In this document: positions 19,076 to 40,160 of the stretch, piece after piece
How positions within the stretch are numbered: position 1 is the first letter of the stretch
Layout: the number at the start of each line of letters is the position of its first letter
Translations under genes and position numbers: made by a program
The notes under the pieces: model-generated
Told to the model about the DNA's origin: nothing
What the model saw: only the letters and a program-made list of their open reading frames with translations
Database searches by the model: none
Assembly (NCBI GenBank): GCA_034190085.1
Contig: JAXHTS010000048.1
Span: forward strand, 38,896-102,895
Length of the DNA stretch: 64,000 bases
From: Spirochaetota bacterium
Lineage (GTDB): Bacteria; Spirochaetota; UBA4802; JAFGDQ01
Reading direction: 5' to 3'

Positions 19076-20197
19076 TTGAAGACCATTGAAGACATTAAAG
19101 CAATCTTATTCGATGAAAGTGAATCTGAATGCAGAATAGTAAAGAGATTTACTTCCATCTTAGAGGATAAAATCTTTATTCAATATAAAGATGAAAATAA
19201 CCTAATCCATCATCTTAACTCTCTACAAAGGGGGGGATACAGCCCCAAAGAGGTTATAATACTGAAAAAATATCAGGGTCGATCTTTTCAACTTTGCCCC
19301 GGTTCACAGAATATGATCTGCTGCAACTATAGGATTATAAATACCTCCTTCAATTGCATATATAACTGTACATACTGTTATCTAAATTCCTATCTAAATT
19401 CATTTGGAATTATGCAGCTTACGAATATTGAAGGTGTTTACAGGGAAATTAATGATTTTCTTAAAAAAACTCATACTGATCGGATATATAGGATAGGAAC
19501 CGGTGAGTTTACAGATTCTCTTATGATTGATGAAACGACAGGTATTGGCAGAGATTTGATTGAGAGGATGAGTCCATTCAAGAACGTAATGTTTGAATTA
19601 AAGACTAAATCGAATAATATCGATCATCTCCTGAATATCAAGGAAAGGGGAAATGCGGTGCTGGCATGGAGCCTCAACACAGAAAGAAATATTTTACGGT
19701 ATGAGAAGTATACAGCTCCACTTTTGGAAAGAATTGAAGCCGCAAAGAAGGCAGATGAGGCTGATTTTTACTTAGCTTTTCACTTTGATCCGATAATAAT
19801 CTACAATGGTTGGGAGGATGATTATAAAAATACTATTGATCTACTCTTTAAAAGCATCGATCCTGAGAAGGTGGTATGGATTTCGTTGGGGTGCTTCAGG
19901 TACAGCCCAGGTTTTAAAGATATACTGAGGGGAAAATTCCCGAATGAAGATTTGACTATAGAAGAGATGTTTCCCGGTCTTGATGGAAAATTCAGGTATC
20001 TCAAAAAAAAGAGGATTGAAATTTACAGAAAGATGAAGGAATATATAAATCATCATACAGATAAACCCTTTTTATATCTCTGCATGGAAAATAGCGAGAT
20101 ATGGAACTCAATTTTCAATAAATACTATTCCTCATCTGAAGAGCTGGAAAGGGACTTCAATGAACATCTAAAAATCAATTTTCTATCATCTCAATAA
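19076..20197 (+). CDS. SplB-like radical SAM protein
   Basis: A 373-residue radical SAM enzyme with the cluster motif CIYNCTYCYLNSY (CxxxCxxC, near residue 98), as in the spore photoproduct lyase family. The next conserved block, RIGTGEFTDSLMID, aligns with the family segment that in Bacillus SPL carries the hydrogen-donor Cys141; no Cys is seen here. Spirochaetes do not sporulate, so thymine-dimer repair of spores is unlikely and the substrate is unknown. The start is TTG 19076, with AGAGGAG about 10 nt upstream; no in-frame ATG serves better. It is probably monocistronic, upstream of flgM. Confidence 0.8.
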   Translation: MKTIEDIKAILFDESESECRIVKRFTSILEDKIFIQYKDENNLIHHLNSLQRGGYSPKEVIILKKYQGRSFQLCPGSQNMICCNYRIINTSFNCIYNCTYCYLNSYLNSFGIMQLTNIEGVYREINDFLKKTHTDRIYRIGTGEFTDSLMIDETTGIGRDLIERMSPFKNVMFELKTKSNNIDHLLNIKERGNAVLAWSLNTERNILRYEKYTAPLLERIEAAKKADEADFYLAFHFDPIIIYNGWEDDYKNTIDLLFKSIDPEKVVWISLGCFRYSPGFKDILRGKFPNEDLTIEEMFPGLDGKFRYLKKKRIEIYRKMKEYINHHTDKPFLYLCMENSEIWNSIFNKYYSSSEELERDFNEHLKINFLSSQ

Positions 20198-20360: not shown

Positions 20361-20390
20361 TTATAATAGATTAACAGAGGTATGGGAAAA

Positions 20391-20690
20391 ATGGTTATAG
20401 ATAAAATTGGAAATATCAACAATACTATTGATTCTAAGAATACAAAATCCATTTCGAAAGGAACAGAGACCAAAAAGAGTGACTCAATTGAGATCTCATC
20501 AGAAGGTAAAAAGGCTGCAGAGATTGCAAAATATACAAGCATTGTAAGAGAGACACCTGACATCAGAAGAGACAAAGTGAATGAGATCAAGGAGCAGATA
20601 AAAGAGGGCAAATACGATAAATTCAACGATAACAAGGTTCTTGAAATGGTTGCTGATAAAATAGCTAAAAATCTATTGAGAAATAGTTAA
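20391..20690 (+). CDS. flgM: Anti-sigma-28 factor FlgM
   Basis: A protein of about 99 residues that binds and inhibits the flagellar sigma factor until the hook-basal body is complete. The C-terminal half has the FlgM signature: DSIEISSEGKKAAE, then VNEIKEQIKEGKY and DNKVLEMVADKIAKNLL. ATG 20391 is chosen because AGAGG lies 10 nt upstream; ATG 20382 is in frame but only 1 nt from it. The N-terminal half is low-complexity and Ser/Lys-rich, as expected for a disordered export signal. The cognate sigma factor is encoded at 34340-35137. A terminator follows at 20721. Confidence 0.88.
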   Translation: MVIDKIGNINNTIDSKNTKSISKGTETKKSDSIEISSEGKKAAEIAKYTSIVRETPDIRRDKVNEIKEQIKEGKYDKFNDNKVLEMVADKIAKNLLRNS

Positions 20691-20720: not shown

Positions 20721-20750
20721 AAAGCGGAAATCCAGTTATCCGCTTTTTTT
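20721..20750 (+). terminator. Rho-independent terminator after flgM
   Basis: An 8-bp stem, AAAGCGGA/TCCGCTTT, with a 10-nt loop is followed by a run of seven or more T. It lies 31 bp past the flgM stop, and shows that the next gene cannot start at the in-frame TTG 20711. Confidence 0.85.
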
Positions 20751-20773: not shown

Positions 20774-21934
20774 TTGAAAGGTGGAATTTTTCCAGATTTT
20801 CATATACCAACAGAAATATATATAAAAAAAAACATAATCGCTGATATTGGAAAGTTAATCAATAATTATGGATCAAAGGTTGTATTAGTCACAACAACGA
20901 CCGATTTTGCAAAATTTTCAGATACAATAGAATCGATCTCAAAAAATATCTCCAATCATGATTGTGGATGTATAATATATGATGAAATCCCAGATAAACC
21001 TGATACAGAATATGTCGACTCTGCAGTTCACTTTATTAAAAAGACCAATTGTGATACTCTTATAGGTTTTGGAGGTATAGAATCCATAAATGTAGCCAAG
21101 GCAGCTTCACTACTCACAAACAATCATTTATTCTGTGAGGACCTTTTTAACTATCCCAAAGTAATTCCCCCTATTTCACTTATAACCATTCCAACACATC
21201 CAATTTTTGGTTTTGAAATTTTACCCATGCTTTATATAAGTGAAATTCGTGAGATGAAAAAGAAGTGCTATTCTGACAAATATCTTTTTCCAAAGGCTAC
21301 TATTATTGATTCACAAATTGCCACAGCCACAGATGATGAAACAACCGCAAATAGCGCAATAAGCGTATTAGCCCTATCTACTGAATCAGTCATTTCAAAA
21401 AAGACTAATGAATTGATAAATACATATGCACTGAAATCGATGGATCTTGTATTTAAAAATCTTCTAAATGCCTATAGAGAACCACAAGATCCAGTCCACC
21501 GGAAGCAACTTGCCATTGCATCTATAATGTCTGGAATCGCTTTTGGAGTTACCGAACTCTCAGTTACCCTTGCTATCTCTCTTGCATTATCATCTATAGT
21601 GGATATTTCAGTTGACAAAGCAATGGGCTTAATTCTCCCACATGTAATGGAATACAACCTCACCACTTCATCCGGTAAGTATGTGCAGATGTCCAAGATT
21701 ATGGATGAAAATATTAAAGATATTACAGTTATTGAAGCCGCAATAAAAGCTGTTGAGGGAGTAAGGAAACTTGAGATTGATGTCGATATTCCTCAGAGAT
21801 TATCACAATTTGATATCCCTAAATCCGAGATGGCTAGAGTAGCAGAGATAGCCTTTTCTTACCCCTTTATTGAAAATGCTCCAAGACCATTAAGCAGGGA
21901 CGAAATTGAGACAATACTAATTGCAGCCTATTAA
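20774..21934 (+). CDS. Iron-alcohol-dehydrogenase family protein lacking the metal ligands
   Basis: About 387 residues with the overall fold pattern of iron-dependent alcohol/glycerol dehydrogenases (PF00465-like): IPTEIYIKKNIIADIGKLI at the start, then the nucleotide loop and AMGLILPHVMEYN. By alignment to E. coli FucO the four metal ligands Asp196, His200, His263 and His277 become Ser, Leu, Leu and Val. The GGGSxxDxxK loop reads GFGGIESINVAK and PTTAGTAAE reads PTHPIFGFE. It is therefore unlikely to be an active dehydrogenase. The start is TTG 20774 (GAGG 6 nt upstream), past the flgM terminator. Its stop is 3 bp before larB, so it is translated with larB-larC. Confidence 0.75.
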   Translation: MKGGIFPDFHIPTEIYIKKNIIADIGKLINNYGSKVVLVTTTTDFAKFSDTIESISKNISNHDCGCIIYDEIPDKPDTEYVDSAVHFIKKTNCDTLIGFGGIESINVAKAASLLTNNHLFCEDLFNYPKVIPPISLITIPTHPIFGFEILPMLYISEIREMKKKCYSDKYLFPKATIIDSQIATATDDETTANSAISVLALSTESVISKKTNELINTYALKSMDLVFKNLLNAYREPQDPVHRKQLAIASIMSGIAFGVTELSVTLAISLALSSIVDISVDKAMGLILPHVMEYNLTTSSGKYVQMSKIMDENIKDITVIEAAIKAVEGVRKLEIDVDIPQRLSQFDIPKSEMARVAEIAFSYPFIENAPRPLSRDEIETILIAAY

Positions 21935-21937
21935 ACT

Positions 21938-22708
21938 ATGTCAAGAGATACAATAATAGAAATCCTTAATAGATTTAAAAATGGAAAGATCTCTGATGAT
22001 GAGGTATTAGATTATATTGAAAAACTCCCCTATGAAGATATATCCTTTGCTAGAATTGATCACCATAGGGCGCTTCGATGGGGATTCCCTGAGGTTATTT
22101 ACTGTCCGGGTAAAACTCCCCAACAGGTCAGAGAAATCGCTAAAAAAATTACTGATAGAGGTTATAACCTTCTTGCCACTAGAGCTTCTCAAATAGTATT
22201 TGATGCTGTTAAGGAAAGCCTGCCTGAGGCTCAGTATAATAAAACCGGCAAAACCATCACTTATATAAAAAATGATATAAAAAAAATTGAGGGAAGAGTA
22301 ACAATTGTAACAGCCGGTACATCAGACATCCCGATTGGGAATGAAACACTTGAGACAGGGAATATACTGGGATTAGATACGTCTATCATTATCGATATAG
22401 GGGTTGCAGGTATTCACAGGGTTATGGATCATAAGGATGAACTTGATTCATCCTCCGTGATCATCGTTATAGCCGGTATGGAAGGAGCATTAGCATCAGT
22501 TATAGCCGGTATGGTAAGTTCTCCTGTTATTGCTGTTCCCACCTCCACGGGTTATGGGGCAGCCTTCAATGGGCTGACACCCCTCCTTGGCATGTTGACC
22601 TCCTGTGTACCGGGTGTCGCTGTTATGAACATCGATAATGGATTCGGAGCTGCGTTTCTTGCCTTCAGGATTCTAAATACCCTTAATAAACTAGAGACAT
22701 CCAGATGA
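21938..22708 (+). CDS. larB: LarB, pyridinium-3,5-dicarboxylate mononucleotide synthase
   Basis: A 256-residue PurE-like carboxylase/hydrolase, the first enzyme of nickel-pincer nucleotide synthesis; it acts on nicotinic acid adenine dinucleotide. Conserved blocks are RWGFPEVIYCPGKTP, VTAGTSDIPI, VIAGMEGALASVIAG, VPTSTGYGAAF and the C-terminal MLTSCVPGVAVMNIDNGFGA. It overlaps larC by 4 bp (ATGA), a sign of translational coupling. LarE and a LarA-type racemase are not in the window. Confidence 0.93.
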   Translation: MSRDTIIEILNRFKNGKISDDEVLDYIEKLPYEDISFARIDHHRALRWGFPEVIYCPGKTPQQVREIAKKITDRGYNLLATRASQIVFDAVKESLPEAQYNKTGKTITYIKNDIKKIEGRVTIVTAGTSDIPIGNETLETGNILGLDTSIIIDIGVAGIHRVMDHKDELDSSSVIIVIAGMEGALASVIAGMVSSPVIAVPTSTGYGAAFNGLTPLLGMLTSCVPGVAVMNIDNGFGAAFLAFRILNTLNKLETSR

Positions 22709-23880
22709 GTAATTGCATTATTTTTGATATACATCAAGGGGCTTCTGGCGATATGCTGCTTGGATCGATGTTAGCCCTGGGATTGGATATTAATAAATTA
22801 AAGAATGAATTGAATAAACTAACCCTTCCAAAGTGGGATATCTTCTCGAAAATAACTGTCAAAAAGGGCTTAAAAGGCACCCTCATTAAAATATCATACC
22901 AGGATGATCAACAAGTTCGATATCTCAGCGACATTGCAGATATTATCCAGAAAAATAATCTCTCTGAAAAAATCAAAAATAATGCACTTGCAGTATTTCA
23001 AAAATTAGCAAGCGCAGAGGCATCAGTTCATGGCACTAGTGTGGATCAAATTCATTTTCATGAGATAGGAGCAATAGACAGCATTATAGACATAACCGCC
23101 TTTTGTATCTCTTTAGATATCCTGAAAATTGACAGTTTTTATTTCAATGAATTTCACTTTGGTTCTGGCAGTATTCAGTCAAGTCATGGAGAACTCCCAA
23201 TTCCTGTGCCAGCAGTCCTTGAGTTAACCAAGGGATTCAAATCAAGATTGACTGAAAGAAGAGGGGAGATTGTCACGCCGACTGCAGCAGCGCTACTCAC
23301 ATCCCTTGGCACACAGATAAATGAATTCCTTGACTTTGTCCTCCTGAAAAGCGGTATAGGTTTTGGGACAAGGGATTACCCCGTCAACAGTTTAACTAGA
23401 TCCTTATTGATCAATATTGAAGATAGCGATATTGAAGATATCTTTCAGATAGAGTGCAATATAGATGACTTGAACCCTCAGGCTTATCCATATGTCATTG
23501 ATAAAATAATAGCCCAGGGTGCGCTTGATGCCTATTTTACTCAAATATTCATGAAAAAAGGCAGACCTGGTATCCTCCTTACAATCATTTCAAAAAATGA
23601 GACCCTGGATTCACTAAAAGAAACAATATATAGAGAAACAACAACATTAGGAATGAGAATTCAGAGGATTAGCCGAGAAAGGCTCGAGAGAAGTATTGAT
23701 ACAATCCATCTTGATAACAACCTTATAAGAATAAAAAAGGGATACTATAAAGACAAGGTGGTCAATATTCAACCCGAGTATGAGGACTGCAGGAAAGCGG
23801 CAGAAAAAAATGATATACCTCTCAGGGATATAATGGATAAAGCTATTTTTGAATACTGCCGAAAGCATGTAATTGATTGA
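22705..23880 (+). CDS. larC: LarC, nickel insertion protein for the pincer cofactor
   Basis: A 391-residue CTP-dependent cyclometallase that inserts nickel into the pincer nucleotide. The N-terminal IFDIHQGASGDMLLGSML and the His-containing IHFHEIGAIDSIIDI are diagnostic of the family; the GELPIPVPAVLEL and ETTTLGMRI segments also fit. It is a single frame, unlike the programmed-frameshift larC1/larC2 of lactobacilli. It is the last gene of the operon and convergent with cheW (26 bp apart). Confidence 0.93.
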   Translation: MSNCIIFDIHQGASGDMLLGSMLALGLDINKLKNELNKLTLPKWDIFSKITVKKGLKGTLIKISYQDDQQVRYLSDIADIIQKNNLSEKIKNNALAVFQKLASAEASVHGTSVDQIHFHEIGAIDSIIDITAFCISLDILKIDSFYFNEFHFGSGSIQSSHGELPIPVPAVLELTKGFKSRLTERRGEIVTPTAAALLTSLGTQINEFLDFVLLKSGIGFGTRDYPVNSLTRSLLINIEDSDIEDIFQIECNIDDLNPQAYPYVIDKIIAQGALDAYFTQIFMKKGRPGILLTIISKNETLDSLKETIYRETTTLGMRIQRISRERLERSIDTIHLDNNLIRIKKGYYKDKVVNIQPEYEDCRKAAEKNDIPLRDIMDKAIFEYCRKHVID

Positions 23881-23906: not shown

Positions 23907-24371
23907 TTACATAGATTCAATCTCCTGAGAAGAAAAAATCTGATCAATGTCGAGTATTACGACAAAGGTATCTTCGACCTTGGCTATTCCCGTAATATAC
24001 CTTCCTGATATTCCCTTTATTACTGGAGGTGGCGGTTCAATATCACTTTCATCAACCCTAACTACATGACTTACGGAATCTATTGCCAGGCCTAGATCTT
24101 TTCCCATAATGTTGACCACAATTGCCCTTTTACTCTCTGTATTTCTATTAGACTCGATGCCAAACCTTTTACTCAAGTCCACTACAGGTATGACCTTGCC
24201 TCTAAGATCAATAACACCCCTAATATAATCAGCCGATTTTGGTAAGGTTGTTATCTTTGGAGTCTTTAATATCTCCTGAACCTTTAATATTTCAATGCCA
24301 TATTCCTCATTCTCAACTTGAAAACATACAATTTGAATTGAGTTATTAGCTCGACCCTTCTTATCCGCCAT
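23907..24371 (-). CDS. cheW: Chemotaxis coupling protein CheW
   Basis: A 154-residue protein joining chemoreceptors to CheA. Typical blocks are CFQVENEEYGIEILKVQEIL, IRGVIDLRGKVIPVVDLSKRFG and GIAKVEDTFVVILDIDQIF. It is the last gene of a long minus-strand run but has its own likely promoter at 24392-24420. No other che gene is adjacent, cheR lying 6 kb upstream. Confidence 0.93.
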   Translation of the reverse strand: MADKKGRANNSIQIVCFQVENEEYGIEILKVQEILKTPKITTLPKSADYIRGVIDLRGKVIPVVDLSKRFGIESNRNTESKRAIVVNIMGKDLGLAIDSVSHVVRVDESDIEPPPPVIKGISGRYITGIAKVEDTFVVILDIDQIFSSQEIESM

Positions 24372-24724: not shown

Positions 24725-25468
24725 TCAAAGGGAATAATATCCATAGATATAAGAGGCTATCCCAAAAATAACAAAAAAAACCATCTTCATAAAGAAGGGT
24801 AACCTTTTCCTGTAAAATATATCAACAAATCCCATAATTATGCCAATTACCGCAGATAACATACCAACAGCAATAATATTTCGATTATACATATAGAGAG
24901 ATACACACAGGAAAATGCCAATAGTAAAATCTAATAAATCAATTAACCCCAATCTTCTTTCTACTTTACTTACTTCACTAATTGTATTAACATAACGAGA
25001 AGCCTCTTCAGGTCTAAAATATTTTCTTCTTGTCCGTTCTAACTCCTTTTTTCTCTCAATCTCTCTTCTTGTTATATCCCATTCATTATTGTAGAACTCA
25101 TTAGTGCTACCCGCTATGCCATAATTATTGTTGATTAGCTTAAGCACCTCACCATTGGGAATGGTTGAAAACACCTTTGCCCTCTTGCTGAACTTATCAT
25201 ACAGCTTCACAACCCTTCCAGTTGTAGCATTCCTCTCTACTACAACTTTACCATTAGCGATCACAGCATAATATGGATTTCCACCTTCATCGGAATCCTC
25301 AATATATAGCCGAACCCTCTTCTCCTTCATATTATAATCAACTCTGATATAATCACTATCCTCAGTAGTAACATATAGAGTCCTATGATATCCGCTGATT
25401 TCCGAAGGCCGTCTCTTCCAGAAGATTTCTCTCGTGTCTATGCTTCTCTTTAATCTATATACTCTCAT
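24725..25468 (-). CDS. Membrane protein of unknown function
   Basis: About 247 residues from ATG 25468 (an in-frame TTG lies at 25483). The N-terminal two thirds is soluble, charged and beta-rich, with a region NPYYAVIANGKVVVE followed by a basic helical stretch (RREIERKKELERTRRKYF). The C-terminus has three hydrophobic helices (about 185-245), so it is anchored in the inner membrane. No family is recognised. It is downstream of the 29-codon gene at 25556 on the same strand. Confidence 0.65.
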   Translation of the reverse strand: MRVYRLKRSIDTREIFWKRRPSEISGYHRTLYVTTEDSDYIRVDYNMKEKRVRLYIEDSDEGGNPYYAVIANGKVVVERNATTGRVVKLYDKFSKRAKVFSTIPNGEVLKLINNNYGIAGSTNEFYNNEWDITRREIERKKELERTRRKYFRPEEASRYVNTISEVSKVERRLGLIDLLDFTIGIFLCVSLYMYNRNIIAVGMLSAVIGIIMGFVDIFYRKRLPFFMKMVFFVIFGIASYIYGYYSL

Positions 25469-25555
25469 TCTCCATATTCCCAACCATAAATAAGTCTAAG
25501 GGGATATATAATTACATTGGAATAGAGTAACCTACTTGTATAAGTATAATGCTGA

Positions 25556-25679: not shown

Positions 25680-26576
25680 TTACCGAAGATTATCAATCTC
25701 TCGTTCAGTTCTATTTGTGTTTGAATCTTCATCGAAACCTAAACCAAAGGGCATACCAGTATCAGCTGAAGATATTATCAATTTTACATTCTTTGCCATC
25801 TTGTCAATATAAATATACTTTAAAAGATCAGGATTCCTCTCTATCATCTTGGATATTTTATTCAATTCATCATAATACTTGTTTTTAAACAACTTTTCCT
25901 TTTGCAATTTATTACTCAACTTCAACAATTCCTTCTCATTATCCTCTTCAATCCTTCTCAATTCATTGTAAAAACGAAGGCCATTATAATACGTTTTAGA
26001 ATTAGGAAGTTCAAAGCCGCCTAATATTTCAATATTGTGTATTGTAATCCCATTACTTAGGGATTTCTCTTTTAATGTATCTGCAACCCTACTTATGATA
26101 AGTTCTTTATCTCTATAAAGGGCCTCTCCTCTATAACTTGGCAAAAAATATGAATATAGCTCCCTCTTGAGATAACCCTTAAAAATCCTATCAATCTCTT
26201 TATTAAAGGCCTTACTACCATCTTTTATACTTGCAGTTGTAAAAGGAAATTTAATAGGATCTATAATATAATCAATGTTAATTGGAACTTGTATTGAATA
26301 TAAATCTCCTTTCATCTCTTCAAAAGGAGGAATTGGAATTTTTAAGTCGAAAAAAACATTATTTTTTTTTCTATAAGTATTTAATTGAATTCTTCTAGGT
26401 ATTATCCCCTGCCATACAAAATTGTACTTATCCTTTAAGATCCTGATTGAATCATTTTTCTTATCAATCAATATAGAAAATGTACTATCTTCAATCTTTA
26501 CAATACAGTTTACGATTACATAACCGACAAATAAAATTATTATAATAAGGAAAAATGTATATATGATCTTCTTCAT
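25680..26576 (-). CDS. SPFH/band-7-like membrane-anchored protein
   Basis: A 298-residue protein with one N-terminal TM helix (about 4-27) and the rest outside the membrane. A beta-rich domain (30-130) is followed by a charged helical region (about 150-260) with ISRVADTLKEKSLSNGITIHNIEILGGFELP, which resembles the C-terminal part of SPFH/prohibitin domains. The assignment is by overall layout only. It lies 20 bp downstream of hfq on the same strand and is likely cotranscribed. No Shine-Dalgarno precedes ATG 26576. Confidence 0.6.
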   Translation of the reverse strand: MKKIIYTFFLIIIILFVGYVIVNCIVKIEDSTFSILIDKKNDSIRILKDKYNFVWQGIIPRRIQLNTYRKKNNVFFDLKIPIPPFEEMKGDLYSIQVPINIDYIIDPIKFPFTTASIKDGSKAFNKEIDRIFKGYLKRELYSYFLPSYRGEALYRDKELIISRVADTLKEKSLSNGITIHNIEILGGFELPNSKTYYNGLRFYNELRRIEEDNEKELLKLSNKLQKEKLFKNKYYDELNKISKMIERNPDLLKYIYIDKMAKNVKLIISSADTGMPFGLGFDEDSNTNRTEREIDNLR

Positions 26577-32345: not shown

Positions 32346-34343
32346 TTAACGTCTTGTTCTTGAAATCGTCATTATCTTTCTTTCCTCATTCCCTAACTCA
32401 GGCACCTCATACTCGGAAAGTCTGATATCATCATTCTCCAGTGTAACCTTAATAAAGGTATAGGGATCTTTAACAGAAAATCTCTCATCCTTAATATGAA
32501 TATCAACACCGGGAAACATGTTTCTTTCAACGCATACCTTCCCCTTTTGTCCGAGCATCTGTATATAAGCCTTCAACTCATCCAATTCAAGTACTATCTC
32601 ATTCAGTTTTCCAGTCAATTTCTGTTTCTGTTCTATCAATTTATTATGTAACTCTTCTTTATCCGGCGGCAAATAACCGCCTGAATTTTTTTTCTGAGTA
32701 TCAATAGTATTAATATCCAACTTCACTTTATTTAATTCCTCATTGATATTCCTATTCATACTTTTAAGTTCAGATATTTGCTGTAACACCTTGGGATTTG
32801 TCCCAACCCTAATCTCAGTTTTAGTAAAAGAATCAGATCCTAAATATCTAGCATTAACCTCCCCTCCGGCCCTAATAACACCACCCACGATTCTAGCCCT
32901 TCTACCATTACAGAGTATCCTGTCTCCAGCATCAACATGAGAATGAAGTATCCCTTCAGACACAATCACATCCTTTTCTGCTATTACATTGGATGTCTGT
33001 ATAAACTTGGCATACACAGAACCGCCCGTAGACTCAATCTTAGACTCATCACGTCCAACAATTCCCTGTCTAACGATTATATCCCCTTCAGATTCAAGAA
33101 AGGCCTTCTGAACCGATCCCTTCACCTCGATATTTCCAGCAGCCCTTACAATAAAATTATCCTGAACGTTACCGGAAATAACAATTGAACCTAGAAATAT
33201 GATATTTCCAGTTTCTAAAGACACATCCCCCTTAACTATATAAACAGGCTCAATACTAATCTTATTATTTTGAAAAACAACCTGTCCGTTAATTTCAGCA
33301 GTCAACTCCAAACCATCTTCAGAAAGGATTGTGCCCTTTCCATACTTCATTACTATGTCCTTTCCTGATTTAGCAGGAAGAATCCTATTTTTTACGGTTC
33401 TTCCAGGAGTACCCTCATCAGCCGACACCTTAACCGCAAGCAACTGACCAACAACAACATTTTCTAAGAGATCAAGATTTCTGAAGTCGACCTGACCCTT
33501 CTCATCCTCCTCAAATAATGAATCAGATTTATCTATTCTAACCTTATAATCTATTCTTGCATCCCTCCCATGCGTTGGGTTCCTTCCTTCAGCAGCGCAT
33601 AGTGACTCCCTATAATTCATCGCATCTAAATATGTCTTTATTCTATCCTCTTCTATCCCTGACACAACACCAACAGCATCTAATGCATCAAGTACCTCAT
33701 CCAATTCTAAATGCTTTCCAGAAAAATGTGGGGGAGAAAATATTGCATAGGCCTTCATTTCGTCTTCCGCAACCTCTATCGACACTGATCCATCATATTC
33801 AGGATTTGGTATCCAGTCTCCAATACGAATTGACTTCAAGGAGGGACTCTTTACTAACTTCTCAAGTTTCTTCACATCATAGTTTGCAATCCTGAGTGAT
33901 GATATTTCATGCATCGCATCAGAAATCTCTATTTTCTTTCCCCTTCCCCGCGGAGGAGTGACCGTCAACCATACCCCTGATTTCGTTACTCTCACCCTGC
34001 ATTCCCCATCTACATTTCCATCAATCCTCTTTAGTTCTATTTCATCCGCTGCGGATCCATGCCCAAGCCTCTTCTCTATCTCCAATATATCATCATGACT
34101 ATCATCTAGCTTAATCGGTTTCACCAATACTCGATAGGGTTTCCGACCAAAACCCCAAAAACCCTTCACTCCCTTTTCAATTATCTCATAATCCAACATT
34201 GAAATATCCACTTGCAATTCCTTTGACGTTAGCTCAAGCGCCTGTTTTACTGAATCAGCATACACCTCTACCCCATCCTCATCAAGTATCTCCTCATCCT
34301 CGATACTTCTTAATATATTCTTAAGATCACTCACCCGACTCAA
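32346..34343 (-). CDS. fapA: FapA (DUF342) flagellar assembly protein with Jag-N domain
   Basis: A 665-residue cytoplasmic protein. Residues about 20-75 form a Jag-N (KhpB-type) domain with [20 protein letters not shown] and [16 protein letters not shown]. The DUF342/FapA region follows with a beta-helix of repeats ([31 protein letters not shown]) and a coiled coil (about 545-605). FapA proteins affect polar assembly of flagella. The start is TTG 34343, overlapping the sigma factor stop as TTGA, so the two are translationally coupled. Confidence 0.88.
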
Positions 34344-35137
34344 CCAACAATATTGGATTTAATTCGGCCTAACCTACCCCTAAGCCGCATAATTGCCTTT
34401 GTGTGTAATTGTGAAACCCTACTTTCTGTTACCTCTAATACCTCCCCAATCTCCTTAAGTGTAAGATCTTCATAATAATATAAGACAATTACCTTTTTCT
34501 CCTTATCTGGCAGTTTTTTTATTGCATCTACTATATAATCACAAATCTCCTCTTTCTCAATTAAAATATCCGGCTTCATATCCTCAGGCGCTTCCAATGT
34601 TTCCAGGAGTGATAACTCATCACTCTCATCTCCCATATAACATATATCATTCAACGACAACACTGAGGTCCCACTCAACTTATTTAAGAGAGCTTGAAAT
34701 TCTTCATTTGTTACACCTAACTCCTGTGCAATCTCTTCATCCTCCACGGTCCTGCCAAGCTTGTTCTCCAAATCAGATATTACCTGCTCAATCTGTTTAG
34801 CCTTCTGCCTAATAGATCGAGGTACCCAGTCAATTGACCTGAGCTCATCAAATATGGCTCCTCGAATTCTAGTCATTGCATATGTCTTAAACTTTATCCC
34901 TCTATTGGGATCATACTTATTGATTGCATCTATAAGCCCAAAAATTCCATATGAAACTAGATCATCGAATTCAATATTCTGAGGCATGCCCATGGATACC
35001 TTTCCAGCTACATACTTAACAAGTGGGGCATACTTGATTACAAAGTAATCACGTATGCCCTGATCCCTTTCCTTAGCATACTTCTCCCATAGATCATCCT
35101 CTTCTGAATTCTCAAATTTATAATTATTATTATTCAT
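34340..35137 (-). CDS. fliA: Flagellar sigma factor (FliA/WhiG family)
   Basis: A 265-residue group 3 sigma-70 factor for late flagellar genes. Region 2 contains [22 protein letters not shown] and [18 protein letters not shown], the FliA/WhiG signature; region 3 follows, and region 4 has [24 protein letters not shown]. It would be antagonised by FlgM encoded at 20391-20690. It sits between the 172-aa membrane protein and fapA. Confidence 0.94.
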
Positions 35138-35161
35138 AAAATACCATACCCCTAATCCCTT

Positions 35162-35680
35162 TTATTCATCATCCCTTTTCATCATAGTCCTTATGGCTTG
35201 GGCCATAATTTTAGGTTCATATCTTATATTCTTATCATTCATATCTGCTTGAGCACTCTCCCCCTTCCCTCCTAAATCCAAAAAGGTTTCAGTAGGGGTT
35301 ACAGTAGGCTCCTTTAATGAAAGGGCTTCATCATCAGCAATGAGTGTCTCCGCGTCCTGAGAACTTGCGTCAACCTCTTGAAGAAACTCATCTGTCATCC
35401 CTTTATCCTCACTACCACTTGGGAAATCAATATTTTCGTTCTCTTTAGAGGACTTCATTATGTTTAGGGCTTCATAAATCTCGGGAACATATTTCTTCAC
35501 TATTATTAGGTTAACATACCCAATAATGCAAAAGGTAATTGTAAATATTATAGATCTAAAGAATACCGTTCCTATTGCATTCCCAGCAAATAACCCAATA
35601 AGGAATGATAAGACTAAGCCAATAACTCCAAATAACACTCCAAATATATACTCAATGTTCAATTCCTTTAAGCTTATCAT
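35162..35680 (-). CDS. Two-TM protein of unknown function in the flagellar operon
   Basis: A 172-residue protein with two hydrophobic helices (about 10-32 and 38-62) followed by an acidic, low-complexity cytoplasmic tail ending in MAQAIRTMMKRDDE. No family is recognised. It sits between flhG and fliA, 24 bp before the latter. The constant position in the run makes a flagellar or envelope role plausible, but that is inference. Confidence 0.65.
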   Translation of the reverse strand: MISLKELNIEYIFGVLFGVIGLVLSFLIGLFAGNAIGTVFFRSIIFTITFCIIGYVNLIIVKKYVPEIYEALNIMKSSKENENIDFPSGSEDKGMTDEFLQEVDASSQDAETLIADDEALSLKEPTVTPTETFLDLGGKGESAQADMNDKNIRYEPKIMAQAIRTMMKRDDE

Positions 35681-35785
35681 TTCACAATCTTCTTAAATAA
35701 GGATGCAGGATTGAAAGGTTTTCTTATTAATTCTCTCCATAAACATAATTTATCAGAAATAGACAACAAATCAAGATAATTTCAC

Positions 35786-36652
35786 TTAGGGAATATCTTC
35801 ATTTCCTAAAATCAACATTCTTCTAAAAAAAGATACCATTCCTGATCCCTTTCGATTATCCACATCCTTGTTCGATATCCGGTCTGCAATCATTGATATA
35901 CAAATTGAAGCCTTGGTCTTTGGATAACTGACAATGAATGGTTTCTGGTTTCTGACTGATCTGCCGACATATATATCATCAAACACGAATCCTAAATTCT
36001 CAACTTTAATGTTTAGGAATTGTCCAGCTATATTTATCACCCTCTGGGCAACCCTCTTACCCTCTGATACAGACTGAACTCGATTAACAACTAGTTTTAC
36101 TGATTTATCCGGCGATTGAGAGGCAATGGATTTGATAATCCCATAAGCATCTGTAATTGCTGTTGGCTCTGGAGTAGTAATCACAATCACCTCATCAGAA
36201 GCGATTACAAAACTCAGGACATTTTGGGATATACCTGCACCGGTATCAATAATCATATAATCATCAGAACCAAGATCTGACACCGCTGCAATGAAGTCGC
36301 TTCTCTGCTTTGCATCAAGATTAGCCAACTGATGAAATCCTGAAGCGCCAGCAATAATCTTAATGCCCTCTGGAACCTCTATCACAATATCCTTTAATCT
36401 CTTCTTCCCCTTGATAACATGATAGAGATTATATTTTGGAATTATCCCCAGTATAACATTGATGTTGGCCAAACCCAGATCTGCATCAAGCAGTGTCACT
36501 GAGGAACCATCTTTGGCAAGAGAAATCGCAAGACTTACTGCCAAGCTTGTTTTACCGACCCCCCCCTTTCCACTGGTAATCGCTATTGTCTTCGTTTTTC
36601 TTTCAAGATCGTTCTTTATTACTAATTTTCTTAAGTTGGATGCCTGATCCAA
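35786..36652 (-). CDS. flhG: Flagellar number regulator FlhG (MinD-like ATPase)
   Basis: About 288 residues. The deviant Walker A KGGVGKTSLAVSLA, switch I DADLGLANINVILG and Walker B IIDTGAG are those of FlhG/FleN, which controls flagellar number and position with FlhF. The start is taken as TTG 36652: AGGAGG lies 6 nt upstream, and MDQASNLRKL is the usual FlhG N-terminus; the ATG at 36658 touches the Shine-Dalgarno. It lies 20 bp downstream of flhF. Confidence 0.93.
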   Translation of the reverse strand: MDQASNLRKLVIKNDLERKTKTIAITSGKGGVGKTSLAVSLAISLAKDGSSVTLLDADLGLANINVILGIIPKYNLYHVIKGKKRLKDIVIEVPEGIKIIAGASGFHQLANLDAKQRSDFIAAVSDLGSDDYMIIDTGAGISQNVLSFVIASDEVIVITTPEPTAITDAYGIIKSIASQSPDKSVKLVVNRVQSVSEGKRVAQRVINIAGQFLNIKVENLGFVFDDIYVGRSVRNQKPFIVSYPKTKASICISMIADRISNKDVDNRKGSGMVSFFRRMLILGNEDIP

Positions 36653-36672
36653 TATCATCCTCCTATTAAGTG

Positions 36673-38025
36673 TCAGCCTATGCCTTTAACAATCATATCA
36701 ACTATTCTATCAGATTCTGCAACTTCAATATCATTAGGCACCTCCTGCCCATTAGTAAAATAGGATATAGGTTTTTTATACTTATTCGCAATATCTATTA
36801 CACTACCGATATATGAAGTCTCATCAACTTTTGTTATGATTATACTATTAAAATTAATCTTATCAAATGCTCTGAAAACATTGTCAAGATCATTCTTCTT
36901 AGTATTAGCGCTTACGCATAATATCTTTTCAAAGTCACACTCAATAACATCCGCATAGCTTTTTATCTCTGATATCTTTAGTTCATTTTTATGACTTCTC
37001 CCTGAGGTATCCACCATTATCACCTCAGCAGGCTCTTTCTCTATTACATCCTTAAAAGCATGATGGTCATTGATCACATGAATTGGTATCTTCATAATTC
37101 CTGCATACTTCTTCAGTTGTTCCGTTGCCGCAATTCTATAGGTATCTATAGTAATAAAGGCTACATTATAACATTCACGTAAAGCATAAATTGCACCCAA
37201 TTTGGCCATTGTAGTGGTTTTTCCGACCCCAGTGGGTCCAATAAACATGATTATCTTCTTTTTTAAACTCTTTTTAAAGGGTCCTGAAGTTACAATCTTG
37301 TTTTTCAGAAGCTCTTTTAGTGTCTTTTCAATCTTATACCTATCTCGCAGGTCATCCTTACTAACTGAATTTTTAACCTCATTAATCAGCAAGTTGCAAT
37401 CCTCATTGGTAAATTCATTTTCTCTCAGCATATAAAGATAGGGGTCTAGGGTTCTATCCTCTTCAGAAACAGACTGATGTAATCTCTCCCCTGTCTGATT
37501 CGCCTTTAATAAAGTGGTTAATGAATCATTAATCCCCTGAAACTCCTTCTCAAATCTCTTCAAAACCCTAAATTCATCCATGTTAACCTGTATCGTACCT
37601 TCGGTTTCCTTTTTAGGAGTTAAAGCAGCTGATAATGAATCATTATTTATTACACTACCCTTTCCAGTATTCATATAATCAGGGGGTTTGTTTTTGATCT
37701 CAAGAGTTTTTTTCAATTCATCAAGTTTATTTACATTGGTAACCAGGGAACTAATGTTAGCGCTTGCGTTACTCTTCTTCATCTCAGTATCACCCACAGT
37801 AAAATCTACTTTATTATTTTTCATCTGCTTATCCTTCATTAAATTCTTTTTTTCTGGAATAGCCGCTGTCAGTTCAACCATATCCTTTGCAAAAAGAGAT
37901 GTATTGAATAATCCACCCTCCTTTATATACTTATGACTGACTGGGATTGCATCATCGCCATACTCCATCTTTAACTTCATCATTGTTTCATTATAAGTCT
38001 TGGCCTTTATTTTTACATACTTCAC
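36673..38025 (-). CDS. flhF: Flagellar SRP-like GTPase FlhF
   Basis: About 450 residues: a basic N-terminal B domain (MKYVKIKAKTYNETMMKLK), a linker, then the NG GTPase domain with FIGPTGVGKTTTMAKLGA, DTYRIAATEQLKKYA, MVDTSGRSHKN and TKVDE. FlhF sets the position of flagellar assembly. GTG 38025 is chosen because GAGGAG lies 7 nt upstream; the in-frame TTG at 38040 overlaps that signal. Confidence 0.93.
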   Translation of the reverse strand: MKYVKIKAKTYNETMMKLKMEYGDDAIPVSHKYIKEGGLFNTSLFAKDMVELTAAIPEKKNLMKDKQMKNNKVDFTVGDTEMKKSNASANISSLVTNVNKLDELKKTLEIKNKPPDYMNTGKGSVINNDSLSAALTPKKETEGTIQVNMDEFRVLKRFEKEFQGINDSLTTLLKANQTGERLHQSVSEEDRTLDPYLYMLRENEFTNEDCNLLINEVKNSVSKDDLRDRYKIEKTLKELLKNKIVTSGPFKKSLKKKIIMFIGPTGVGKTTTMAKLGAIYALRECYNVAFITIDTYRIAATEQLKKYAGIMKIPIHVINDHHAFKDVIEKEPAEVIMVDTSGRSHKNELKISEIKSYADVIECDFEKILCVSANTKKNDLDNVFRAFDKINFNSIIITKVDETSYIGSVIDIANKYKKPISYFTNGQEVPNDIEVAESDRIVDMIVKGIG

Positions 38026-38060
38026 TTCTCTACTCCTCAAAATCTAATGTCTTTCATTCA

Positions 38061-40160
38061 TCAAGCTACTGTCTTAAGTATTGCTGACACAACGATATTT
38101 ACTTCCACCTCAGGCGATATCTCACTATATGATAGGACAACCGGATCAGGGATCTCTCTTTCCAATAATGAAAATAAAACGCTCCTCTCTCTTGGAGAGA
38201 CTAAAAAGATAGGGAGATATCCCATATTTCTTGATCTTCTATAGGCATCAACCAAGGAATCGATTACCCTTCGGTATGTTTCCGGATCCATACTGGATAT
38301 TTGCCCCTCAATCGGATCTTCATATAATGAAGAGAGGATCATATTTTCAATCTCAGGATCAACGGTGATAACGGATAAAACATTATCTTTATCAAGATAC
38401 TCTTTGCATATCTGTCGAGATAGTGCGGCCCTTACATACTCTGTCAATACTCCAATATCCTTAGTGTAATCTGAATAGCTGGCTAAAGTCTCAAGGATGG
38501 TTACCATATTTCTTATGGAAACCCTTTCTCTCAGAAGGTTCTGTAAAACTTTCTGTATTTCGCCCAGGCTCATCTTCTTGTCTGTAATAAGTTCATCAAT
38601 AACAGCAGGATAATCCTTCTTGATGTTGTCGATCAGCTGTTGCACCTCCTGTCGTCCCAATATCTCATCTGCATGTCTCTTTATAATCTCGGTAAGGTGA
38701 GTGGCTATCACTGTAGGACAATCAACTACAGTATAACCGTTTCTATCAGCAATATCACGTCCCACAGGATCAATCCAAATTGCCTTTAATCCAAATACAG
38801 GCTCAACAAACTCTACCCCATCAATTTTATCTTCCACATCCCCGGGATCCATTGCCATCAGCTTCCCTACTTGCAGCAGACCGCTTCCAACCTCAACTCC
38901 CTTAATCAATATGGAGTATGACTTTGGTTCCAGTTCCATATTATCCCGTATACGTACTGGTGGCACAATGAGACCCATATCCAAAGCGCTTCTTCGCCTA
39001 ATATTTGTTATTCTATCAAGAAGGGTCCCTCCCTGTTCAGGATCTACAAGGGGAATAAGACTATATCCTATCTCCACCTCTAGGGGATCAACCTGAATAA
39101 GTGGTATAACGGACTCCGGCTTCCGCTCTTTTGAAGATTCCTTCTCCTTCATCGCCTCCCTCTCCTCCCCTTCCCTCTGGGTCTGCTGCAGGAAATAGGC
39201 AAGTGTAGCAAGACCCGCTGCAATCAATATCATTGATACCTTAGGAAATCCAGGGATAAAAATCGACCCCCCAATCGCCACTGCTGTAATGAAGAGCGCT
39301 CTTGGTTGTGATCCAAGTTGAGTGGCAAGATCCTGTCCAAGATTCTCTTCTGAAATAGCCCTTGTGACTATGATACCTGTTGCTGTTGTTATGAGGAGTG
39401 AAGGAATCTGACTAACCAATCCATCCCCTATTGTAAGGATTGTATAGGTTTTCAGAGCAACATCAAAGGTCTCCCCCCTCATAGCCATGCCGATTATAAA
39501 TCCCCCAATTATATTTATCAGGGTTATTACAATCCCAACCTTTACGTCACCCTGCACGAACTTTGATGCTCCATCCATGGCCCCATAAAAATCAGCCTCC
39601 TTACGTATCTCATTTCTCCTTATAATTGCCTCCTCCTCTGTAATTATGCCATTAGAAAAATCAGAATCTATACTCATCTGCTTCCCTGGCATAGCATCCA
39701 ATGTAAACCGCGCAGCGACCTCTGCTGTTCGTGTAGCCCCCTTAGTTATTACTATAAACTGAACAGCAACAAGGATAATGAATATGATAAAACCTACAAC
39801 ATAATTGCCACCAACAACGAAGTCCCCAAAGGTTCTTATTATTTTGCCATCAAAGGAAGATCCCATAAGCAAAATCAATCTTGTGGAAGAAACATTCAGC
39901 GCCAATCTAAAGACAGTGGAAACTAAGAGTAGCGATGGGAATATTGAAAAGTCAAAGGACCTCTGAATGAACATCACCACCATCAGGGTCAACATTCCCA
40001 CCATAATGCTTATAGCCATCAGAAAATCGAGAAAAAAGGTAGGCAAGGGGATTACAAGCATCACTACAACTGTAATTATTCCAAGACCCACAAGGATGTC
40101 ATTCTTCTGCATCCAAGCAATATCATTAGTTAAAAAGGAGAGCCCCCCCTTAGAATCCAT
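38061..40160 (-). CDS. flhA: Flagellar export protein FlhA
   Basis: A 699-residue inner-membrane component of the flagellar type III export gate. Eight TM helices lie in residues about 20-330, including the FHIPEP-type loop with AEVAARFTLDAMPGKQMSIDSD. The cytoplasmic nonamer-forming domain follows (about 365-699) with VDCPTVIATHLTEIIKRHA. GAGG precedes ATG 40160. It lies between flhB (139 bp away) and flhF. Confidence 0.96.
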   Translation of the reverse strand: MDSKGGLSFLTNDIAWMQKNDILVGLGIITVVVMLVIPLPTFFLDFLMAISIMVGMLTLMVVMFIQRSFDFSIFPSLLLVSTVFRLALNVSSTRLILLMGSSFDGKIIRTFGDFVVGGNYVVGFIIFIILVAVQFIVITKGATRTAEVAARFTLDAMPGKQMSIDSDFSNGIITEEEAIIRRNEIRKEADFYGAMDGASKFVQGDVKVGIVITLINIIGGFIIGMAMRGETFDVALKTYTILTIGDGLVSQIPSLLITTATGIIVTRAISEENLGQDLATQLGSQPRALFITAVAIGGSIFIPGFPKVSMILIAAGLATLAYFLQQTQREGEEREAMKEKESSKERKPESVIPLIQVDPLEVEIGYSLIPLVDPEQGGTLLDRITNIRRRSALDMGLIVPPVRIRDNMELEPKSYSILIKGVEVGSGLLQVGKLMAMDPGDVEDKIDGVEFVEPVFGLKAIWIDPVGRDIADRNGYTVVDCPTVIATHLTEIIKRHADEILGRQEVQQLIDNIKKDYPAVIDELITDKKMSLGEIQKVLQNLLRERVSIRNMVTILETLASYSDYTKDIGVLTEYVRAALSRQICKEYLDKDNVLSVITVDPEIENMILSSLYEDPIEGQISSMDPETYRRVIDSLVDAYRRSRNMGYLPIFLVSPRERSVLFSLLEREIPDPVVLSYSEISPEVEVNIVVSAILKTVA

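Follow-up and report, generated by a model that had tools for sequence, protein, structure and literature searches.

What is the role of a protein that possesses the fold of an iron-containing alcohol dehydrogenase, is devoid of the residues typical for metal and dinucleotide binding and is encoded between flgM, the gene for an anti-sigma-28 factor, and the larB and larC genes? This question is raised by a stretch of 64,000 nucleotides from a member of the Spirochaetota, which was analyzed as a whole and is referred to here as the window. The protein, termed ADHL in this work, is encoded on the forward strand (20774..21934). A GAGG motif is present six bases upstream of the TTG start codon at 20774, and the reading frame is intact up to the stop codon at 21934 (386 amino acids plus stop, i.e. 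387 codons).

Fold, lost active site and conservation of ADHL

Both its sequence profiles and its fold assign ADHL to the iron-containing alcohol dehydrogenases (Fe-ADH). It is recognized by the Pfam families Fe-ADH (PF00465, 96.7 bits, cut-off 31.3) and ADH_Fe_C (PF25137, 103 bits, cut-off 27), and its AlphaFold2 model (pLDDT 94.3, pTM 0.91) matches solved Fe-ADHs in the PDB over the whole length with a TM score of about 0.92 at 20-24% identity. Fold and length are shared with group III enzymes such as Mdh from B. methanolicus (8zwd), ADH2 from Z. mobilis (3owo), 1,3-propanediol dehydrogenase (3bfj) and FucO (1rrm). However, the Asp-His-His-His metal site of these enzymes is missing, as its four ligands align with S197, L201, L266 and V280 in ADHL, the GGGSxxD dinucleotide loop reads GGIESIN and the TTxGTGSE loop is absent as well. 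Judging from its sequence, ADHL would neither be catalytically active nor bind NAD.

Within the order, 45 genomes encode orthologues of ADHL with 46-66% identity, the one exception being a genome that is 73% complete (G044). Those in other families are more divergent (25-38% identity). The reading frames are intact throughout, with about 380-390 residues, and identities among relatives (50-66%) are similar to those of LarB and FlgM from the same genomes. A single-genome oddity or a decaying gene can be ruled out in view of the intact orthologues in the order and across the phylum. None of the inspected orthologues, whether from the order or from distant lineages, has a full metal site, and the same applies to the most divergent forms, which are encoded downstream of flgM in Treponema-like and other families. 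All inspected Fe-ADHs from organisms other than spirochaetes retain the GGGS motif along with all or most of the Asp-His-His-His site, just as a canonical paralogue from the same genome as ADHL does (L179). In a phylogenetic tree, 41 pseudo forms and 30 canonical Fe-ADHs are split by one branch with a support of 100/100, such that the ADHL clade is of single origin on this tree and stands apart from the canonical enzymes. It is thus well supported by the sequences compared that ADHL is an ancient pseudoenzyme, the ligand loss of which was fixed across the Spirochaetota.

These results bear out much of a preliminary description of this DNA, which had reported the replacement of all four ligands and of the NAD loop, an intact frame of 387 codons, a distance of 3 bp to larB and an overlap of larB with larC, and which had proposed a conserved pseudoenzyme. 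The alignment and the gene coordinates agree with the former statements, and the phylum-wide loss of ligands in a clade of one origin agrees with the latter. A divergent ADHL encoded after flgM (L188:3350-4912) has retained the first two metal ligands, Asp and His, and lacks the last two His; it possibly represents a remnant from the time at which the metal-less form arose. Furthermore, metal-less ADHL proteins are encoded on contigs of metagenome-assembled genomes titled Candidatus Hydrogenedentota or plain bacterium (L113, L120, L127), which are probably misassigned spirochaete contigs.

Conservation was compared after thinning the sequences to less than 60% identity, which left 31 ADHL proteins and 21 canonical Fe-ADHs. 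In the latter, G102, S103, T141, T142, G144, D197, H266, H280 and G281 are conserved at or near 100% (H266, H280, G102, S103, T142 and G144 in all sequences) and H201 is found in 86%. The residues of ADHL at the metal and NAD-loop positions are scattered without any consensus, and the positions of the dinucleotide loop rank with the least conserved ones of the whole family. On the other hand, conservation of residues 299-346 amounts to 0.660 in ADHL versus 0.504 in canonical Fe-ADHs. The newly conserved segment, for which the coding part for residues 298-346 is found at 21665..21811 (forward strand), is led by E328, I324, R342, R331 and E321; T297, just outside of it, is conserved too. G100, K109, P140 and D179 stay near-invariant. 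Such a pattern would be expected if catalysis had been lost and a binding surface acquired, whatever its ligand. The C-terminal segment is also strongly conserved in Leptospiraceae-like loci (L109, L110, L111, L114, L120, L121), in which flgM was not detected directly upstream of ADHL.

Linkage with flgM and the intervening hairpin

In the window, ADHL is preceded by flgM (20382..20690, forward strand; PF04316, 45.7 bits, cut-off 25). Among the matches listed, both genes could be placed in 109 genomes of the phylum, and flgM lies directly upstream of ADHL on the same strand in 90 of these (45/45 in the order, 45/64 outside of it). The linkage is therefore conserved phylum-wide, and it persists across very divergent ADHL sequences, down to about 25% identity. 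FlgM itself is single-copy in nearly all relatives. The usual gene block is rsmI-flgM-ADHL, in which rsmI, encoding an rRNA methyltransferase, is as tightly linked upstream of flgM as ADHL is downstream. In the window, the place of rsmI is occupied by a gene for a spore photoproduct lyase homologue (19076-20197, forward strand; PF20903, 104.7 bits). Both flgM and ADHL are present but apart in families f15, f20, f27-f29 and f31, and in one subgroup of family f24 (g44, L201-L203) ADHL is located elsewhere in the genome and not at flgM.

All FlgM-less genomes that were checked (families f34 and f43 and genome G082) lack ADHL, although these losses of FlgM represent few independent events in small genomes. 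Members of f34 (1.0-1.8 Mb) encode FliG; FliA over the cut-off, FlgM and ADHL were not found, and for ADHL this result was obtained with a permissive threshold in a single genome (G094) and with a stricter one in the remaining genomes. In G082 (1.1 Mb), FliG and FliA are present while FlgM and ADHL are absent. Family f43 has neither FliG nor FlgM, and its sole Fe-ADHs are canonical, with GGGS motif and metal site. The reverse relation is not strict: ADHL was not detected in four FlgM-bearing genomes (G137, G166, G175, G220), in which a canonical Fe-ADH was the only one found. In the genomes checked, ADHL hence tracks FlgM and not flagella as such.

Between flgM and ADHL, a terminator-like hairpin is present at 20722..20747 on the forward strand (AAGCGGAAATCCAGTTATCCGCTTTT). 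It has the structure AAGCGGA-loop-TCCGCTTTT, and its T-run extends past the hairpin and ends just before the ribosome-binding site of ADHL. The promoter and terminator scan missed this element because its loop is larger than the limit of the scan. Both the window and the genome contain this pattern a single time, and for the window shuffled sequences gave an expectation of zero. Nearly all members of the order possess an equivalent with an identical or very similar stem at this site, hairpins with different stems are located there in other families, and most lineages with a flgM-ADHL gap of less than about 30 bp have none. A known RNA family was rejected, with Rfam yielding only one match at chance level (11 bits versus a gathering score of 40), and so was a repeat spread over the genome or a terminator motif of general use, given the single copy in this genome and a few copies at other places in relatives. 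There is little space for a separate ADHL promoter, so read-through from flgM is the likely source of ADHL mRNA. ADHL is probably a minor read-through product behind the flgM hairpin, which could possibly act as an attenuator setting the ratio of both genes. The interval covered by the preliminary description left out flgM and the hairpin, the very features that matter most.

Further flagellar and chemotaxis genes are situated in the vicinity. The convergent cheW gene (23907..24371, reverse strand), identified by PF01584 (142.1 bits), directly follows ADHL in relatives lacking lar genes at this locus, as judged from synteny. About 14 kb away, the flagellar gene cluster contains fliA (34340..35137, reverse strand; TIGR02479, 286.9 bits, G000:C48:73265-73936, with sigma-70 domains) for sigma-28, the target of FlgM. 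This cluster (32346-40160, reverse strand) comprises genes for a FapA-like protein, FliA, a 172-residue protein of unknown function, a MinD/FleN-like ATPase, an FlhF-like SRP GTPase and FlhA. Two proteins of 252 and 298 residues without Pfam match are encoded at 24725-25483 and 25680-26576 (reverse strand); their order and their place between cheW and miaA are conserved across the order.

The lar genes and other explanations for ADHL

On its 3' side ADHL is followed, after a gap of 3 bp, by larB (21938..22708, forward strand; NF033503, 275.2 bits, cut-off 175), which overlaps by 4 bp with larC (22705..23880, forward strand; TIGR00299, 177 bits, cut-off 90; NF052512, 141 bits). LarE is encoded at a distant place in the genome (G000:C19:115940-116710, L177; 255 bits, cut-off 150), and LarA (PF09861) was not found in the assembly, which is 96% complete and has LarB, LarC and LarE. 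The preliminary description was thus correct in stating that larE and larA are not encoded nearby, and of the two only larE could be located elsewhere in the genome. A survey of larB-larC neighbourhoods revealed the pair downstream of ADHL in members of families f1, f2, f4, f5 and f6, whereas f3 and f7 show the order flgM-ADHL-cheW without lar genes at the locus. In f3, f7, f8, f9 and f13, LarB is encoded away from ADHL, often beside larE, and LarB over the cut-off was not detected in the ADHL-bearing genomes G049, G050, G052-G054 and G056. In a few distant lineages (L057/L125, L062, L115, L118, L130) larB directly follows ADHL with larC not in view, which implies that the adjacency is either recurrent or old. 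In a LarB tree, the ADHL-linked copies of the order group together (98/99); the tree neither proves nor excludes a single origin for the distant cases. Two alternative settings of larB are seen within the order (L260-L279), the gene often being located with larE or else downstream of the flgM-linked ADHL.

The preliminary description had suggested that ADHL might take part in nickel-pincer nucleotide synthesis as a carrier, scaffold or regulator, binding NaAD or an intermediate of the pathway on behalf of LarB and LarC. The close spacing of ADHL, larB and larC and the position of larB directly downstream of ADHL in several deep lineages are in line with this proposal. ADHL is not a known Lar component, however, and its link with the lar genes is confined to some families: most flgM-ADHL loci are without them, ADHL exists in genomes without LarB over the cut-off, larB often has larE as its neighbour, and LarA was not found in the very genome under study. 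The lar operon was accordingly rejected as the defining context of ADHL. Binding of NaAD is unlikely, since the NAD-loop residues are not maintained. While the pseudoenzyme is well supported, the lar partner is probably wrong; we consider a core role in nickel-pincer synthesis very improbable, whereas an accessory link is possible in some lineages.

Three further explanations deserve attention, of which an inherited gene order is the most serious one. The block rsmI-flgM-ADHL may simply be frozen and ADHL may fulfil an unrelated structural or metabolic role, as could be argued from the equally conserved rsmI, from the persistence of unlinked ADHL in f15, f20, f29 and others and from the terminator-like hairpin that separates both genes. 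We nevertheless regard this as unlikely, given that the checked FlgM-less genomes are devoid of ADHL even where flagella remain and that the linkage spans sequences diverged to about 25% identity. Maleylacetate reductases are metal-independent enzymes with the Fe-ADH fold and a changed active site, and ADHL, with its fully retained fold and near-invariant G100, K109, P140 and D179, might represent another such enzyme. A working active site would hardly be compatible with formerly catalytic and dinucleotide-binding positions that lack consistent substitutes throughout the phylum, and this makes such an activity rather improbable. Similarly low is the probability that ADHL is a flagellar assembly factor not touching FlgM, e.g. 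an export chaperone: its gene is positioned directly downstream of flgM, just as flgN follows flgM in Bacillus, and the cluster with fliA, flhF and flhA is within 20 kb, but flagellate FlgM-less lineages (f34, G082) manage without ADHL and its fold is unlike that of known chaperones.

A possible partner of FlgM

The explanation we favor, tentatively and with slightly less than even confidence, is that ADHL is an ancient pseudoenzyme encoded by a partner gene of flgM and exerting a regulatory role at the FlgM/sigma-28 flagellar checkpoint. According to this proposal, an ancestral protein with Fe-ADH fold would have given rise to ADHL a single time; the sites for metal and NAD would have disappeared, and ADHL would have been retained as the product of an flgM partner gene. 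ADHL may bind FlgM or the FlgM-sigma-28 complex via the helical surface near its C-terminus that has come under new constraint (residues about 299-346). Once bound, it could stabilize FlgM or gate its release or export and would thereby set the timing at which late flagellar genes are switched on, with the hairpin after flgM keeping ADHL at a minor level.

Several findings speak for such a regulator: the order flgM-ADHL in 90/109 genomes, the lack of ADHL in FlgM-less genomes, the lost catalytic consensus together with the new C-terminal conservation, the single clade supported by 100/100, intact frames and a high-confidence fold, as well as the unusual FlgM of T. denticola and the precedents of ErcA and AdhE. 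On the other hand, the genes are apart in several families, four genomes have FlgM without ADHL, and the hairpin separates both genes in the lineage of the window itself. The main weakness lies in the equally tight linkage of rsmI, which indicates that synteny can persist here without an obvious functional bond, and in the few events on which the co-loss with FlgM is based.

From the literature found, support is obtained solely for the setting in which a partner of FlgM would operate. In Treponema denticola, FlgM is reported to stabilize FliA, and flagellin expression is reduced upon deletion of flgM (Kurniyati 2023, as reported in PMC12655853). In a biofilm network of Leptospira biflexa, flgM is the most connected regulator (PMC4863578). 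ADHL adjoins flgM and follows its presence, and a pseudoenzyme partner of FlgM, a link between FlgM and an Fe-ADH protein in spirochaetes or a description of the ADHL family was not encountered in the literature searched. ErcA from Pseudomonas, the best NCBIfam match of ADHL, is likewise an Fe-ADH-type protein, for which a regulatory role is proposed, as judged from the title of the original study (Hempel 2013, cited in PMC5741723). ADHL remains far below the equivalog cut-off for ErcA (160.9 versus 550 bits), and there is no evidence of an flgM context for ErcA. AdhE from E. coli O157 shares an Fe-ADH domain with ADHL, and deletion of adhE raises sigma-28 and flagellar gene expression (PMC4249723). 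AdhE is, however, an active enzyme not linked to flgM, and the effect has been ascribed to acetate metabolism and not to direct binding, which weakens it as a precedent.

ADHL clearly exemplifies how a non-catalytic protein can emerge from an enzyme family, with the conserved surface shifted away from the active site and towards the C-terminus. Its gene, present throughout the phylum and so far unstudied, is probably annotated as alcohol dehydrogenase by homology, and it is likely a piece still missing from the flagellar control of spirochaetes, the motility of which matters for several diseases. It is conceivable, albeit more doubtful than probable, that spirochaetes have possessed an enzyme-derived co-regulator of FlgM and sigma-28 since early in the phylum and that a dead dehydrogenase serving as FlgM partner may help to explain why their FlgM deviates from the textbook anti-sigma factor. 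ADHL makes it possible to test why FlgM stabilizes FliA in Treponema denticola and why loss of FlgM lowers flagellin.
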